DNA of 64,000 nucleotides, from positions 1 to 64,000 of the forward strand of contig NZ_JABFAO010000011.1 in assembly GCF_017168235.1 (NCBI RefSeq). The letters run 5' to 3'. A program made the position numbers and the translations under genes. The first letter of the stretch is position 1; every line of letters begins with the position of its first letter. This DNA comes from Rhodococcus sp. KRD197. Its GTDB lineage: Bacteria > Actinomycetota > Actinomycetes > Mycobacteriales > Mycobacteriaceae. The notes under the pieces are model-generated. The model worked only from the letters and a program-made list of their open reading frames with translations. It ran no database searches and was not told the DNA's origin. Shown here in pieces: positions 1 through 8,373 of the stretch.

Positions 1-1161
1 GACGTCGAGTCCGGGGAGTTCGAGGTGTGCGGTGGTGTTGTTCTGGAATTCGAGGAGGACTTGGAACAGGGGTGAGTGGTCGGTCGAGCGTGTGGGTGCG
101 AAGGCGTCGACGAGTCGCTCGAAGGGGATGTCGGTGTTGTCGAAGGCGGCGAGGTCGGTTGCGCGGGTGCGGGCGAGGAGGTCGGTGAAGGACTCGTGCG
201 GGGAGACCTCGGTGCGCAGCACCAGGGTGCCGACGAACATGCCGACGAGGTTGTCCAGGCCTGCTTCACCGCGGCCGGCGATGGGGGTTCCGACGGTGAT
301 GTCCTCGGTGCCACTGAGCCGAGAGAGGAGAAGTGCGAGCGCAGAGTGCACAACCATGAACAGAGTGGCATCGTGTGCAGCGGCGCAACGCGTGAGCTGC
401 GCACGAATATCGGACGGAATCTCGAATCGAGTCGTGGCGCCGTCGACAGTTTGCTGGGTGGGTCGTGGGTGGTCGAGCGGCAACGGCAACACATCGGGCA
501 CATCTGCCAACGTCTGCGACCAGAACGCCAACTGCTTCGACGCCACCGACTCCGGATCGTCCTCGTCACCGAGCAACGACCGCTGCCACAACGTGAAATC
601 GGCGTACTGCACCTCGAGCGGCGCCCACGACGGAGCACTGCCGGAGACCCGCGCCGAATACGCCACCATCACATCCGCCGCCAACGGCGCCATCGACGCA
701 CCATCAGCGGCGATGTGATGCACCACGATCGCCAACACGAACCGATCGAGCGACTCGGAGTCCGCATCGACGACCCGATACAACGACGCCCGGAACGGAC
801 GATCCACCGTCACATCGAACCCACGCGAGGCATCGGCCAACACCCGCGCCGACACCTCAGCGGACTCGACCTCGACAACATCGAACGAGAAAACTCCGAC
901 CTCGGCTGGATGAATCAACTGATGCGGCAACTCCCCCACCGTCGGGAACGTCGTCCGCAAACTCTCGTGCCGAGAAACCACATCGGACACCGCAGCACCC
1001 AAGGCAGCGATGTCGAGTGCACCGGTCAACTGCACCGCAAGAGGAATGTTGTACGCCGCCGAGGACGTATCGAACTGATTGATGAACCACATCCGCTGCT
1101 GCGCCTGCGACAACGGCACCCGATCCGGACGCTCCATCGGCACCAGAGCCGGACGCTCCAT
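1..1161 (-). CDS. Nonribosomal peptide synthetase, condensation-domain fragment (partial at both ends)
   Basis: Reading the minus strand from 1161 down to 1 gives 387 uninterrupted codons. They begin with the start of an NRPS condensation domain (LSQAQQRMWFINQFD). The catalytic HHxxxDG motif reads HHIAADG at 700-720. The fragment ends near the usual DHSPLFQVLLEFQN segment late in the domain. Condensation domains form the peptide bond between two carrier-protein-bound amino acids. Adenylation and carrier domains would lie beyond the left edge. The ATG at 1161 is probably not a true start: the domain is normally preceded by other modules, and the upstream bases are adapter-derived. The position of this piece next to the following genes is therefore unproven. 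Confidence 0.85.
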   Translation of the reverse strand, partial: MERPALVPMERPDRVPLSQAQQRMWFINQFDTSSAAYNIPLAVQLTGALDIAALGAAVSDVVSRHESLRTTFPTVGELPHQLIHPAEVGVFSFDVVEVESAEVSARVLADASRGFDVTVDRPFRASLYRVVDADSESLDRFVLAIVVHHIAADGASMAPLAADVMVAYSARVSGSAPSWAPLEVQYADFTLWQRSLLGDEDDPESVASKQLAFWSQTLADVPDVLPLPLDHPRPTQQTVDGATTRFEIPSDIRAQLTRCAAAHDATLFMVVHSALALLLSRLSGTEDITVGTPIAGRGEAGLDNLVGMFVGTLVLRTEVSPHESFTDLLARTRATDLAAFDNTDIPFERLVDAFAPTRSTDHSPLFQVLLEFQNNTTAHLELPGLDV

Positions 1162-1217
1162 AGATGCTTAACCGAGCCTTATCGTCGGCAGCGTCAGATG
1201 TGTATAAGGGACAGCGC
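1161..1217 (+). other. Illumina Nextera adapter plus i5 index: chimeric assembly junction
   Basis: Bases 1182-1195 are TCGTCGGCAGCGTC, the Nextera read-1 adapter start. Bases 1196-1214 read AGATGTGTATAAGGGACAG, the Tn5 mosaic end with one A-to-G change at 1209. The eight bases just before (1174-1181, GAGCCTTA) equal, from memory, Nextera XT v2 index S521. Translation gives the known artefact peptides SAASDVYK on the plus strand and LYTSDAAD on the minus strand. Bases 1161-1173 could be a degraded copy of the P5 tail, but that is weak. The flanks encode unrelated proteins in opposite orientations, so this is a false join. Confidence 0.95.
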
Positions 1218-1922
1218 ATGAGCACACCCACCCGCACACAAACCACTGACGACCGACGCCGAGCCACCCTCACCACCACCGACAACAAAGACGACCCGAA
1301 ACCCGACGACCCGAACCCCGACACCGAGACCGAAGGCACCGACACCGGCAACAACGGATTCCTCTACGACACCGACCTACTCGCCGACCTCACAGAACCC
1401 GAACCTGCCAGCACCACCCCCGACCTGATCCTCGGCCGCACCCGCACCCTCGCAGCCGGACACCTACCCGACCCGCCACCGAACCCGCCACGGGCGCCTG
1501 CACCCGCCACCACCGCCGCAGGCCTCGCCGACTACTACCGCGCCGTCGTCGCAGGCGACCCACACCACGATCACGCCGAACACCCCGACGGCCACGGCGG
1601 TCATCCGACACCTCCACCCGGAGCCCTCACCTACACCCCCGGCACAGCACTCGCGACGTACATCCGCGCCCAATACCCCACCTGCCGCCACCCCGGCTGC
1701 ACCATCGCCTCGAACCGCTGCGACCTCGACCACATCGTCGAATTCGACCATCACAACCCCCACCGCGGCGGCTGGACCATCGCCGCCAACCTCGCCCCCT
1801 ACTGCCGCACCCACCACAATCTCAAAACCAGCAAACTCTGGACCACCGAAAAACTCCCCTATGACGTCATCCACACCACCGACCCACACGGCAACCACTA
1901 TTTCGACCCACCCGAACTATGA
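1218..1922 (+). pseudogene. HNH endonuclease (DUF222/13E12-repeat type), 5' end lost at the adapter junction
   Basis: The 3' part encodes a clear HNH nuclease domain: a zinc-type CRHPGC, the DLDHIVEFDH core and YCRTHHNLK, spanning about the last 100 residues. These are features of the 13E12-repeat/DUF222-HNH family common in Rhodococcus and mycobacteria. The first ATG after the adapter is at 1218 and gives 234 residues. Family members are usually 400 or more residues with an N-terminal DUF222 domain, which is absent here. The middle is an acidic, Thr/Pro/Asp-rich linker. The gene is probably intact in the organism and truncated only by the artefact. These proteins are usually multicopy and of uncertain role. 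Confidence 0.75.
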
Positions 1923-1975: not shown

Positions 1976-2404
1976 GTGTGGAGAGCAGTGTGGTGGGCCC
2001 TGGTTGTGGTCGCAGTGGCCGTCACCGCGAGTGTCGGGACCTCGTGGTCGATGGCTGATGTGTCGCTCTCGTGCTCCAAGATCGGCGAAAGCGGATCTTT
2101 CTACCAATGCGATGACCGTGCCGTCCACGTGCTTGGGGTATGGCCGTTGATCGGTGTGGGACTGTTGCTCGCGGCACCGCTCGTAGTGGCAGCATTGGCC
2201 ATGCGAAAGTGGGTTTCCTGGGTCGCTGTTGCGGCGTTCCTCGGTCTGTCTTTCGCCGGGCTTCAGCTATGGGCCGCGTCCTCTTATTGGAGCCTGCTTT
2301 TCCTTGCGGTTCCCTTGGCGGCCCTCGGATCAGTCGCCGCCACGTTCCAGCGCAGTGCCCCGCGCCCAGGAACGTCAGGACGCCGTTCTACTCCAGTGGC
2401 GTAG
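1976..2404 (+). CDS. Small hypothetical membrane protein
   Basis: The gene encodes 142 residues. About four hydrophobic segments are visible: residues 4-27, 47-72, 76-97 and 101-121. A Cys-containing loop follows the first segment, and the C-terminus is short, basic and Ser/Pro-rich. The GTG at 1976 is chosen because a TAGGCT hexamer lies 6 bases upstream and the first helix starts at once. I do not recognise the family. The gene is monocistronic and convergent with the PPOX gene that ends at 2414. No enzymatic motif is visible. Confidence 0.6.
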   Translation: MWRAVWWALVVVAVAVTASVGTSWSMADVSLSCSKIGESGSFYQCDDRAVHVLGVWPLIGVGLLLAAPLVVAALAMRKWVSWVAVAAFLGLSFAGLQLWAASSYWSLLFLAVPLAALGSVAATFQRSAPRPGTSGRRSTPVA

Positions 2405-2413
2405 ATCTCCAGG

Positions 2414-2791
2414 TCACCCAGGTACGACGACGATCCCGACTGTTCCGTCCTTGCCACGGCGAAGTGAACTGCCCTTGACCACCAGCCATCCTACGATGCC
2501 GTACTTCGACGTGATCGCCGCGCGAGCCTTCTCGGTCCCCGCCGCGTCGAGGACTTCGGCGATGCCGTCGACAGCGTCGCCCTCGATCTTTCCGCGTGCC
2601 GAGCAGGGCGCGACGGTGACCTTCGCGTTGCGCCTGATCCGTTTGACCTTCCACGAATCGGCCGTGGTCCAGACGAGGAGTCGGTCACCGTCGCGCGCGC
2701 CCCACAGGGGTGTCGCGACGGGCGTTCCGTCCTTCTTGAACGTAGTGAGCGAAACGTACTTTCCGTCGGCGATCTCCTGGAACGTAGCCAT
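2414..2791 (-). CDS. PPOX-class F420-dependent oxidoreductase, Rv2061 family
   Basis: The 125-residue protein has the split-barrel flavin/F420-binding fold: a KYVSLTTFKKDGTPVATPLWGA strand pair, LLVWTTADSWKVKRIRRN and VTVAPCSARGKI. The family (TIGR03666, from memory) is named after Rv2061c, which also lies next to cobN in M. tuberculosis, so position supports the call. Such proteins bind deazaflavin F420 or FMN and act on small redox substrates; the substrate of this subfamily is unknown. A TACGCT hexamer 6 bases before the ATG suggests its own leaderless promoter in the 15-base gap after cobN. Confidence 0.8.
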   Translation of the reverse strand: MATFQEIADGKYVSLTTFKKDGTPVATPLWGARDGDRLLVWTTADSWKVKRIRRNAKVTVAPCSARGKIEGDAVDGIAEVLDAAGTEKARAAITSKYGIVGWLVVKGSSLRRGKDGTVGIVVVPG

Positions 2792-2806: not shown

Positions 2807-5800
2807 CTACTCGCCCTCGAGGTCTCCCTCTGTTTCCAGGTACACCTGACGCAACCCGTCGAGCACATTCGGATCGGGTTCTGCCCACATCTTCCGTTCA
2901 GCGGCCTCGAGGAGACGCTCGGCGATTCCGTGTAGTGCCCAAGGATTCGACTGCTGCATGAACTTCTGGTTCTGCTCATCCAACACGTATGTCTCGGCGA
3001 GCTTCTCGTACATCCAGTCGGCCACCACGTCCGTTGTGGCGTCGTAGCCGAAGAGATAGTCGACAGTTGCCGCCATCTCGAACGCACCCTTGTAGCCATG
3101 TCTACGCATCGCATCGAGCCAGCGCGGATTGATCACACGCGCACGGAACACCCGAGCAGTTTCCTCGGACAGTGTGCGAGTGCGGACCGATTCCGGTCGC
3201 GTGCTGTCGCCGATGTAAGCCTCGGGTGACTTACCGGTCAGCGCACGCACGGTCGCAACCATGCCGCCGTGATACTGGAAGTAGTCGTCGGAATCGGCGA
3301 TGTCGTGCTCGCGCGTGTCGGTGTTCTTGGCTGCCACGGCAATACGCCGGTACGCGGTGCGCATGTCGTCGGATGCAGGAACACCGTCGAGGCCGCGACC
3401 GTAGGCGAAACCGCCCCACGTCGTGTACACCTGTGCCAGGTCCTCGTCGCTGCGCCAGGTCTTGCTGTCGATCAGCTGGAGTAGCCCCGCGCCGTAGGTA
3501 CCGGGCTTACTGCCGAAGATTCTCGTCGTCGCGCGTCGTTCGTCGCCGTGTTCGGCGAGATCGGCCTGGGCGTGGGCGCGGACATAGTTCTGCTCCGCCG
3601 ATTCGTCGAGGGCGGCGACCAATCTGACTGCGTCGTCGAGCAGTGCCAGCACGTGCGGGAACGCGTCCCGGAAGAAGCCGCTGATCCGGACGGTCACATC
3701 GATGCGTGGCCTACCCAGCTCATCGAGGTCGATCACCTCGAGTTTCGTCACCCGGCGGGAGGCCTCGTCCCATACCGGACAAACACCCAGCAGCGCGAAG
3801 ACCTCCGCAACGTCGTCGCCCGAGGTACGCATCGCCGAGGTACCCCACACGGAAAGGCCTACCGACTTCGGCCAATCGCCATGGTCCTTGCGGTATCGAG
3901 CGAGCAGTGACTCGGCCATCGCCTGACCGGTTTCCCAGGCCAGTTTCGACGGCACCGCTTTCGGATCGACCGAGTAGAAGTTTCGGCCGGTCGGAAGCAC
4001 ATTGATCAGTCCGCGCAGTGGGGAGCCGCTCGGACCGGCGGCGATGAATCCGCCGTCGAGGGCATGCAGCACCTGCGAAATCTCGTTCGAGGTTCCCCGC
4101 AGCCGTGGTACCACCTCGGTGGCAGCGAACCGGAGGATGTCGACGACAGTCGAACCATGCTCGCCCGCAACACTTTCCACCTCGGCCGGGTTCCATCCGG
4201 TGGCAGCCATCGCCGCGACGAGACCGTGCGCGGTGGCTTCGACCTCGTCGACCCGCACCCGCGCCTCGTCGCCGTCCTCACTGAGCCCGAGAGCTTCGCG
4301 AAGCCCCGGGACGGACTGCTCGCCGCCCCACATCTGGCGGGCACGAAGCATCGCCAGCACCAGTTCGACCTCGGCGTCGCCGACGGGTTCTTGCCCCAGG
4401 ATGTGCAACCCGTCGCGTATCTGGACATCTTTGATCTCGCACAGCCAGCCGTCGACGTGGAGCAGCATGTCGTCGAACACTTCTTCGTCCGGACGCTCCT
4501 CCAACCCGAGGTCTTGATGCATCTGCGCGGCAGTCATCAATGTCCAGATCTGCTGTCGGATGGCAGGCAACTTGGCAGGATCCAACGTCGAGATGTTGGC
4601 GTGCTCGTCGAGAAGCTGTTCGAGCCGTGAGATGTCGCCGTAGCTTTCCGCCCGCGCCATCGGTGGAATGAGGTGGTCGACGAGGGTTGCATGTGCCCGT
4701 CGCTTCGCCTGCGTGCCCTCACCCGGGTCGTTGACCAGGAACGGATAGATCAGGGGTAGGTCGCCGAGTGCGGCATCGGTACCGCACGAGGCCGACATGC
4801 CCAGCGTCTTACCCGGCAACCATTCGAGGTTTCCGTGCTTGCCGAGGTGAACCATCGCGTCGGCGCCGAATCCGCCGTCCTCACGGGCAGCTTGGATCCA
4901 GCGGTAGGCCGCCAGATAGTGATGACTCGGCGGCAGATCCGGATCGTGGTAGATCGCGACCGGCCGCTCACCGAATCCGCGGGGCGGCTGCACCATGATC
5001 ACGACGTTGCCGAACTGCATCGCGGCAATGACTATCTCGCCATCTGGATCGCTCGAACGGTCGACGTACATGTCCCCCGGCGCCGGGCCCCAATGCTCCT
5101 CCACCGAGGAGGTGAAATCCTCGGGTAGCTCGGCGAACCACGAGCGGTAGCGGGCGGCGGAGATTCGGATGGGGTTGCCCTCGAGCTGTTCTGCGGTAAG
5201 CCAGTCGGGGTCCTGTCCGCCGCGCGCGATCAGGGCATGGATCAAGGCGTCACCGTCTCGTGCCGCCAGGCCGGGAATGGCGTCGGGCCCATCCTCTGGA
5301 CCGAGATCGTAACCGGCGGAGCGCATTTCCGACATCAAAGCGATGGCACTGGCCGGGGTGTCGAGACCGACGGCGTTGCCGATGCGGGCATGCTTGGTCG
5401 GGTAAGCCGAGAACATCAGGGCTATACGACGGTCGGCGGCCGGGATGTGACGGAGCTTGGCATGGCGGACTGCGATTCCGGCGACCCGCGCCGCACGTTC
5501 GTGATCGGGAACGTAGGTCGTGAGGCCGTCCCCGTCGATCTCCTTGAAGGAAAACGGAACGGTGATGAGTCGACCGTCGAACTCGGGCACCGCCACCTGG
5601 GTCGCGACATCGAGTGGCGAGAGACCGTCGTCGTTGTCGTTCCAGGTGGCGCGGCTGCTGGTCAAACACAACCCCTGCAGGATCGGCACATCGAGAGCGG
5701 CCAGTTCGGCCACATCCCACGCCTCGTCGTCGCCGCCGGCCGATGCACCGGCCGGTTTGGTACCACCGGCTGCAAGCACGGTGACGACCATGGCGTCCGC

Positions 5801-6412
5801 AGACTTCAGCGTGCTGAGGAGTTCGGGTTCGGCGGTGCGCAGCGACGCGCAGAAGATCGGCAGTGCGCGCCCGCCGGCCTTCTCGATGGCAGTGCAGAGC
5901 GCGTCGATATAGGCGGTGTTGCCGGCGAGGTGCTGCGCCCGGTAGTACAGGATTGCAACGGTCGGGCCGTCCACCTCGATGGTCGGAGTGCGGCCGAGCA
6001 GGCCCCATGTCGGCGTATGGAGCGGTGCCGCGAAGCCGTGCCCGGTCAGCAGCACGGTGTCGGAGAGGAATGCGTGCAGCTGTGCGAGGTTCTCCGGGCC
6101 ACCCTCCGCCAAGTAGTTGTGGGCCTGAGCCGCGACATTGGCCGGAACGGTCGACAGCTCCATCAGCTCGGCGTCCGGAGCCTGCTCGCCGCCGAGGACG
6201 ACAACGGGAACTCCCGCGGCCAGGACTGCGTCGACACCGTCCTCCCAGGATCGCTTGGAGCCCAGGATGCGGAGGACGATCAGATCTGACCCGTCGGCCA
6301 AGCCAGGTACATCGTCGGCCAGCAATCGCGACGGATTGCCCCACCGGTATTCCGCGCCACTGGCACGCGCGCTGAGAAGATCGGTGTCCGAGGTGGACAG
6401 CAGCAGGATCAC
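2807..6412 (-). CDS. cobN: Cobaltochelatase subunit CobN
   Basis: The 1,201-residue protein is the large subunit of the ATP-dependent aerobic cobaltochelatase, which inserts Co2+ into hydrogenobyrinic acid a,c-diamide together with CobS and CobT or their equivalents (not in this window). It has the Mg-chelatase subunit-H fold throughout, with segments such as MVHLGKHGNLEWLPGKTLG and YQYHGGMVATVRALTGKSP, and matches the usual length (about 1,190-1,200). I place the start at the GTG at 6412 (VILLLSTSDTDLL). A longer open frame to 6502 runs through the riboswitch and is not credible. An AAGGG Shine-Dalgarno stretch lies about 9 bases upstream. Expression is probably B12-repressed. Confidence 0.93.
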   Translation of the reverse strand: MILLLSTSDTDLLSARASGAEYRWGNPSRLLADDVPGLADGSDLIVLRILGSKRSWEDGVDAVLAAGVPVVVLGGEQAPDAELMELSTVPANVAAQAHNYLAEGGPENLAQLHAFLSDTVLLTGHGFAAPLHTPTWGLLGRTPTIEVDGPTVAILYYRAQHLAGNTAYIDALCTAIEKAGGRALPIFCASLRTAEPELLSTLKSADAMVVTVLAAGGTKPAGASAGGDDEAWDVAELAALDVPILQGLCLTSSRATWNDNDDGLSPLDVATQVAVPEFDGRLITVPFSFKEIDGDGLTTYVPDHERAARVAGIAVRHAKLRHIPAADRRIALMFSAYPTKHARIGNAVGLDTPASAIALMSEMRSAGYDLGPEDGPDAIPGLAARDGDALIHALIARGGQDPDWLTAEQLEGNPIRISAARYRSWFAELPEDFTSSVEEHWGPAPGDMYVDRSSDPDGEIVIAAMQFGNVVIMVQPPRGFGERPVAIYHDPDLPPSHHYLAAYRWIQAAREDGGFGADAMVHLGKHGNLEWLPGKTLGMSASCGTDAALGDLPLIYPFLVNDPGEGTQAKRRAHATLVDHLIPPMARAESYGDISRLEQLLDEHANISTLDPAKLPAIRQQIWTLMTAAQMHQDLGLEERPDEEVFDDMLLHVDGWLCEIKDVQIRDGLHILGQEPVGDAEVELVLAMLRARQMWGGEQSVPGLREALGLSEDGDEARVRVDEVEATAHGLVAAMAATGWNPAEVESVAGEHGSTVVDILRFAATEVVPRLRGTSNEISQVLHALDGGFIAAGPSGSPLRGLINVLPTGRNFYSVDPKAVPSKLAWETGQAMAESLLARYRKDHGDWPKSVGLSVWGTSAMRTSGDDVAEVFALLGVCPVWDEASRRVTKLEVIDLDELGRPRIDVTVRISGFFRDAFPHVLALLDDAVRLVAALDESAEQNYVRAHAQADLAEHGDERRATTRIFGSKPGTYGAGLLQLIDSKTWRSDEDLAQVYTTWGGFAYGRGLDGVPASDDMRTAYRRIAVAAKNTDTREHDIADSDDYFQYHGGMVATVRALTGKSPEAYIGDSTRPESVRTRTLSEETARVFRARVINPRWLDAMRRHGYKGAFEMAATVDYLFGYDATTDVVADWMYEKLAETYVLDEQNQKFMQQSNPWALHGIAERLLEAAERKMWAEPDPNVLDGLRQVYLETEGDLEGE

Positions 6413-6424
6413 AGGTAACGCCCT

Positions 6425-6565
6425 TCTGAGAGGTTTTCGCGCCCCTCGTTCAAGTGTGTAGCTCACCGAGAGGGTCTGACTGTGACAGTGGCGCGACCGC
6501 ACCGGAATTTCACCGGTTTCCTCTCGGCCGAAGCCTACTTCAGCGGAATGCTACCGAAGTTCCAG
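6425..6565 (-). ncRNA. Cobalamin (B12) riboswitch ahead of cobN
   Basis: On the minus strand the segment contains the conserved riboswitch core: GAGAGGAAACCGGTGAAATT, then CCGGTGCGGTCGCGCCACTGT, then a B12-box-like GTCAGACC. An 8-base CCGAGAGG early in the core pairs perfectly with CCTCTCGG just after the B12 box. The element sits in the 5' leader of cobN, 10-150 bases before its GTG. B12-bound RNA would be expected to block cobN translation through the downstream CCTCTC/GAGGGG region. The outer boundaries are approximate. It is oriented away from the divergent cobG, so it should control cobN only. Confidence 0.85.
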
Positions 6566-7746: not shown

Positions 7747-8373
7747 ATGCACGACTACATCCGCGACGGCGCGGAGATCTACCGACAATCCTTCGCGACC
7801 ATCAGGGCCGAGGCGGATCTTTCGGCGTTCTCCCCTGATATCGCGCAGGTGGTCGTTCGCATGATCCACGCGAGCGGTGAAGTCGATCTCACCGAGGTCG
7901 TCGCCGCCACACCCAACGTCGTGGTCGATGCACGCGCCGCTCTCGAGGCCGGCGCCCCGATTCTCTGCGATGCGAACATGGTCGCCGCCGGGATCACTCG
8001 ACGACGCCTCCCGGCGGACAACGAAGTAATCTGCACGCTCTCGCACCCGTCGGTTCCGGCGCTGGCCGAAAAGCTGGGGACCACCCGAACGGCCGCTGCT
8101 CTCGAACTGTGGGGTGATCGACTCGACGGTGCCGTCGTTGCCATCGGCAACGCGCCCACGGCGTTGTTCCACCTGCTGGAGATGCTCGAGGCAGGCGCGC
8201 CGAAGCCCGCCGCGATTGTCGGCGGTCCGGTCGGTTTCATCGGGGCAGCCGAGTCCAAGGAAGATCTGATCGAATCCGGCTCGGGTGTCGAATATCTGGT
8301 GGTGCGTGGGCGACGCGGCGGCAGTCCTATCACCGTCGCCGCGGTCAATGCTATTGCGAGCGAGACGGAATGA
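7747..8373 (+). CDS. cobH: Precorrin-8X methylmutase CobH
   Basis: The 208-residue protein moves the C11 methyl to C12 to give hydrogenobyrinic acid. The likely catalytic histidine is H41 in [11 protein letters not shown], matching the active His of the Pseudomonas enzyme. The [11 protein letters not shown] and [14 protein letters not shown] segments are typical of CobH/CbiC. Length is normal. The ATG at 7747 fits the family N-terminus ([15 protein letters not shown]); the longer open frame upstream overlaps cobG and is spurious. The stop overlaps the cobIJ start in ATGA, so translation is coupled. Confidence 0.92.

Follow-up and report, generated by a model that had tools for sequence, protein, structure and literature searches.

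A sequencing adapter as the very probable false bridge between an NRPS fragment and an HNH-type gene in the assembly of Rhodococcus sp. KRD197

The window, i.e. the whole stretch of 64,000 nucleotides that was analysed, is C5:1-64000 of an assembly (G000) of 100 contigs. It begins with a condensation-domain fragment of a non-ribosomal peptide synthetase (NRPS) gene, followed by a tract of adapter sequence, by the 3' part of a putative HNH-type gene and by the genes of a small protein, a pyridoxamine-phosphate-oxidase-like protein (PPOX) and the cobaltochelatase subunit CobN (Table 1). The two coding pieces that flank the adapter are read head-to-head, the NRPS piece from the minus and the HNH piece from the plus strand, as the initial annotation had it. 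Searches for adapter sequence and a check for runs of N covered all of the window, while the remaining analyses of it reached to about position 8,000. No runs of N were found in positions 1-64,000.

Table 1. Features at the left end of the window, with the basis of each assignment
Feature	Position	Strand	Basis or remark
127-base contig overlap	1..127	.	exact match to the final 127 bases of C10 (278,337 bp) and of C45 (8,298 bp)
NRPS condensation-domain fragment, presumed copy of a collapsed repeat	1..1161	-	Condensation, Pfam E 3.2e-77
17 bases between NRPS homology and i5 index	1157..1173	.	read-tail error, P5 remnant or native
i5 index GAGCCTTA, S521 of Nextera XT v2	1174..1181	+	index name according to Table A2 of PMC7589761
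Nextera read-1 adapter TCGTCGGCAGCGTC	1182..1195	+	exact, directly before the mosaic end
Tn5 mosaic end	1196..1214	+	18/19, adjoins the genomic insert
HNH-type gene of the DUF222 kind (putative), 3' part	1215..1922	+	66% to residues 471-709 of 709, G006
Small protein, HNH side of the join	1976..2404	+	no Pfam family
Pyridoxamine-phosphate-oxidase-like protein (PPOX)	2414..2791	-	Pfam and synteny; nearest conserved gene to the right of the join
cobN, cobaltochelatase subunit	2807..6502	-	Pfam; anchor of the synteny test

The adapter is present in the sequence. The 33-nt string of read-1 adapter and mosaic end gave a single match in the window when up to three mismatches were allowed, at 1182-1214 on the plus strand and with one mismatch, and none of 100 dinucleotide shuffles matched it. 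With the mosaic end alone the same threshold again gave one match, at 1196-1214 and with one mismatch. Both SAASDVYK (plus frame) and LYTSDAAD (minus frame), the artefact peptides named at the outset, occur in the list of open reading frames, and the claim that proteins spanning the adapter are spurious is supported. The eight bases preceding the read-1 adapter, which had been taken for a kit index, are indeed in Table A2 of PMC7589761, under the name S521-C, among the i5 indices of Nextera XT v2; the oligos of that table carry a different tail, and it thus supports the index and not the whole oligo. The same eight-base string is also part of an unrelated primer given in PMC12047771. The extent of 1161-1217 first assigned to the adapter was too wide. 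Its recognisable part is 1174-1214, and homology of the NRPS side to the relative G006 reaches to 1156 and stops there. Compared with the Nextera XT v2 i5 adapter of Illumina, the window has the index and the read-1 adapter exactly, 18 of the 19 bases of the mosaic end and the expected order and polarity; it differs in the one mismatch of the mosaic end and in having no recognisable P5 upstream.

The polarity is rightward: the index is followed by the read-1 adapter, the mosaic end and then base 1215, within the HNH-type gene, and no mosaic end was found on the NRPS side of the join in the window search with up to three mismatches. The adapter therefore belongs to the tip on the HNH side, and Tn5 would have cut at base 1215.

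Seven matches to the mosaic end, that of the window included, were found in the whole genome with up to three mismatches, and none to the reversed control pattern. Three copies are internal (window, C36:747068 and C25:53059); they have a tract of read-1 adapter and index in the same polarity, with differing mismatches (1, 2 and 2 per 33 positions against the kit sequence). The copy at C36:747068 is preceded by the same eight index bases and the copy at C25:53059 by seven of the eight. Three copies, in contigs C2, C5 (121,394) and C14 (412,692), border N runs that are each exactly 100 bases long, and are spaced differently from the gap edge: L002 abuts the N run, L004 reaches it through the read-2 adapter and three bases, and L001 through seven T. 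The seventh copy has three mismatches; 13 read-1 bases separate it from the end of contig C14. The adapter remnants are a property of the sequencing library.

The second internal adapter, C25:53052-53091 (L110:5052-5091), lies between two open reading frames that resemble one gene. Its flanks are near each other in five of six relatives, and the distance is 247 nt here, adapter included, versus 185 nt in G006 and G018. The join at C25:53059 is probably right, one gene being split there by the adapter, and because this adapter lies in a true neighbourhood an adapter alone is no proof of false adjacency. The third internal adapter is found at C36:747060-747100 (L109:5060-5100). Its left flank is conserved in all six relatives searched, and its right flank gave weak and dispersed matches only; the right flank, by eye a ferredoxin and a molybdopterin oxidoreductase, was not found beside the left flank in the relatives.

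In the full Nextera i5 oligo, P5 presumably stands before the index, and the index before the read-1 adapter and the mosaic end. Placed in this fixed register, P5 matched 10 of 29 positions before the index of the window (reached by 4318 of 20000 shuffles), 9 of 29 upstream of the index at C25:53059 (6428 of 20000) and 16 of 29 at C36:747068 (18 of 20000). Gapped local alignment of P5 gave no significant score at the window, C36 or C25 copy. A P5-like match is thus found only in the C36:747068 copy, and there only in the fixed register. A degenerate P5 before the index of the window looked plausible by eye but is not supported, with 451 of 2000 shuffles reaching the gapped score and the fixed register unsupportive as well.

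The contig ends around the NRPS fragment describe a repeat. C10 and C45, which both end in the first 127 bases of the window, differ at the base immediately preceding this overlap. The start of C45 overlaps in turn with C34: C45:1-127 matches the final 127 bases of C34, taken in reverse, without a difference, and the two sequences part at base 128. Exact overlaps of 127 bases are consistent with a de Bruijn graph with k of about 127. In G006 the NRPS repeat occurs twice, the copies being 82% identical over 3.0 kb, and two such copies appear to have been collapsed in the present assembly. The overlaps of C10, C45 and C34 account for two ways into the repeat and two proper ways out, so that the exit through the adapter is a surplus third. 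A search for the remaining part of the repeat, about 1.7 kb past 1156, gave nothing of comparable identity in the 61 matches from the best 40 of 194 candidates; in this set the matches longer than about 300 bases were 65-71% identical and belong to other modules, and shorter ones reached up to 83%. The exact overlaps at the repeat ends, with two contigs leading in and two leading out, are those of a collapsed two-copy repeat of NRPS modules. What differs is that the repeat contig is broken here, the 1.7 kb being absent among the best 40 of 194 candidates, and is left by way of an adapter. The listed NRPS reading frame starts with the ATG at 1161, at which no gene probably begins in reality.

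The HNH-type piece is truncated, as claimed at the outset: about 470 N-terminal residues are missing relative to the 709-residue homologue in G006. A Pfam search of the piece gave no families, and thus no N-terminal DUF222; in the G006 homologue DUF222 occupies residues 100-249, within the part that the window piece lacks. The label HNH itself finds no Pfam family in the window piece, and the assignment of 1215-1922 is a putative one made from the identity to a DUF222-containing protein and a motif read by eye. Neither the ATG at 1164 nor that at 1218 is probably a real start of the gene.

Positions 1774-1943 of the window are 97.6% identical to the tail of an HNH-type paralogue on C36, and C34:1-240 is 98.3% identical to C36:369612-369850, the head region of that same paralogue. 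This head region contains the start of a DUF222/HNH-type gene and a LexA-type box, shared with the end of C34. The simplest reading of these identities is a single HNH-type gene that would have its head at the end of C34 and its finish at 1922 of the window, the middle having dropped out owing to the near-identical C36 paralogue. Since several HNH-type copies are present in the genome, pairing the head on C34 with the tail in the window needs synteny besides identity. The paralogue on C36 (C36:369612-371248; L111:1612-3248) lacks an internal stretch relative to the G006 homologue and shifts frame before the conserved tail; possible explanations are a pseudogene and another collapse in the assembly.

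Synteny was followed with the NRPS piece (1-1160) and the block 1215-2800, which holds PPOX, as queries against 30 relatives, of which 18 are congeneric, and distance was taken from the end of the nearest NRPS match to PPOX. Among the matches listed, 11 of the 18 same-genus relatives had both flanks on one contig. All 11 had them in the same orientation and order, at a spacing of 14.4-20.5 kb among the matches listed versus 1.3 kb here (14.4 kb in G001, G007, G012, G013, G014 and G017, 15.7 in G004, 17.4 in G003, 18.3 in G006, 19.0 in G011 and 20.5 in G010). The other seven give no test of spacing: among the matches listed, G008, G009 and G018 have the best NRPS and PPOX matches on separate contigs, and G002, G005, G015 and G016 have a weak NRPS match (best E >=1e-55) on a contig other than that of PPOX.

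The contigs around the repeat can be lined up along G006. The end of C10 aligns to 1989008-2000149, the repeat begins at 2000023, C45 aligns to 2002883-2011195, the repeat begins again at 2011082, C34 in reverse aligns to 2013905-2026018 and PPOX is found at 2030504. C34 (12.5 kb) thus aligns to the interval that the join in the window omits, and by synteny it would belong between the NRPS repeat and the HNH-type gene. Relatives and contig overlaps together point to C10-repeat-C45-repeat-C34-C5 as the probable true order. Among 80 named cobN loci, 31 had both PPOX and the outer conserved gene of C34 (C34:361 onward). These two genes were in the expected orientation in 30 loci, every one of which bears Rhodococcus or Rhodococcoides in its title (as 34 loci do), and less than 1 kb apart in 21; the 31st locus is from Nocardia and its arrangement does not fit. 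The other 49 loci had PPOX only (4), the C34 gene only (1) or neither (44). In Rhodococcus sp. Leaf247 (L139:13694-17936) PPOX and the C34-type gene likewise have an HNH-like stretch between them, in the orientation opposite to that of the window, and genes of the HNH-type family may insert preferentially into the interval between these two.

We regard it as highly probable that the spot is an assembly error in which an adapter acted as a false bridge, and not biology. On the comparison with relatives and on the contig overlaps the recorded adjacency can be judged wrong, and the flanks of the join are very probably non-adjacent in the genome itself. Even so, the NRPS piece and the PPOX/cobN block would be parts of the same gene neighbourhood, an estimated 15 kb or so apart, and the sequence skipped would be largely contig C34 of the same assembly. 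The skip is estimated at about 15 kb in total, to which the repeat would contribute about 1.7 kb, C34 12.3 kb and the HNH-type gene about 1.3 kb, and its consequence would be a truncated HNH-type gene and spurious protein ends.

The following course of events is proposed. A tagmented library fragment starting at 1215 would have been read through its insert into the adapter of the i5 side. Genuine coverage would have run out, and the contig would have been extended to the left through the mosaic end, the read-1 adapter and index S521. The adapter-bearing tip could then have been fused to the broken end of the two-copy NRPS repeat at a point no more than 17 bases from the index, possibly through a short imperfect overlap in the gap closing of the assembler.

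It is unlikely that the flanks are true neighbours, through a third copy of the NRPS repeat beside the HNH gene or through a deletion in this strain, with the adapter filling a tiny gap. The copy at C25:53059 looks like such a case, its flanks being close in most of the relatives searched. Against the same account here, the relatives have 14-20 kb at this place in eleven cases among the matches listed, the repeat already has its two entries and two proper exits, and C34, the counterpart of what fills the interval in the relatives, exists in this assembly with both ends fitting.

More improbable still is a random false join in which the NRPS fragment comes from a distant part of the genome. Adapters could in principle link any two tips, and NRPS modules are repetitive, with 53 matches in the own genome, but the alignments of the two contigs leading into the repeat, C10 and C45, fall in the same G006 locus, and the 11 one-contig relatives all keep the distance of 14.4-20.5 kb and the orientation among the matches listed. 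This origin was rejected on synteny. Of the false join first proposed, the non-adjacency of the flanks is thus very probably correct, while an origin of the NRPS piece elsewhere in the genome does not agree with its place in the same locus in the 11 relatives. A genuine end of a Tn5/IS50-type element or an engineered insertion has a negligible probability despite the 18 of 19 bases shared with the mosaic end, and is rejected because the end is joined to a read-1 adapter and a kit index; moreover it is single in the window (up to three mismatches), with no inverted pair, and other copies lie at contig tips and gap edges.

Of 396 genomes sampled from the phylum, 7 (the own genome among them) had read-1 adapter with mosaic end at up to two mismatches, with 13 sites between them. 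Copies with mismatches in other actinobacterial assemblies are at a contig end in G290 (L200) and internal in G172 (L201) and G393 (L202); in L202, 22 exact P5 bases are followed in order by AAGGAGTA, the read-1 adapter and the mosaic end. In viral contigs exact copies occur in at least 120 stretches, and 119 of 120 are within 200 bases of the stretch end. The sole exception, L204:2154-2186, has the exact adapter well inside a stretch of 4,734 bases and is possibly a further bridge. The window has the same tract of read-1 adapter and mosaic end as these remnants in public assemblies, but its copy is internal, bridges two contigs and has a mismatch. This mismatch may have helped it to escape screens for exact matches.

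The adapter-bridged join is an ordinary artefact, and the value of recognising it is curation. That mismatched read-through tips are recurrent false bridges which evade screens and prefer repeat breakpoints such as those of NRPS modules is a tentative and rather doubtful generalisation; if it is true, some of the natural-product loci in databases are many kilobases too short, with nothing to show it. The predictions 1-1161 and 1164/1218-1922 have ends at the adapter and are unfit for use as given. Both the HNH-type gene and the NRPS locus beside cobN are probably longer than in the record, the latter running by synteny through C10, the repeat, C45, the repeat and C34.
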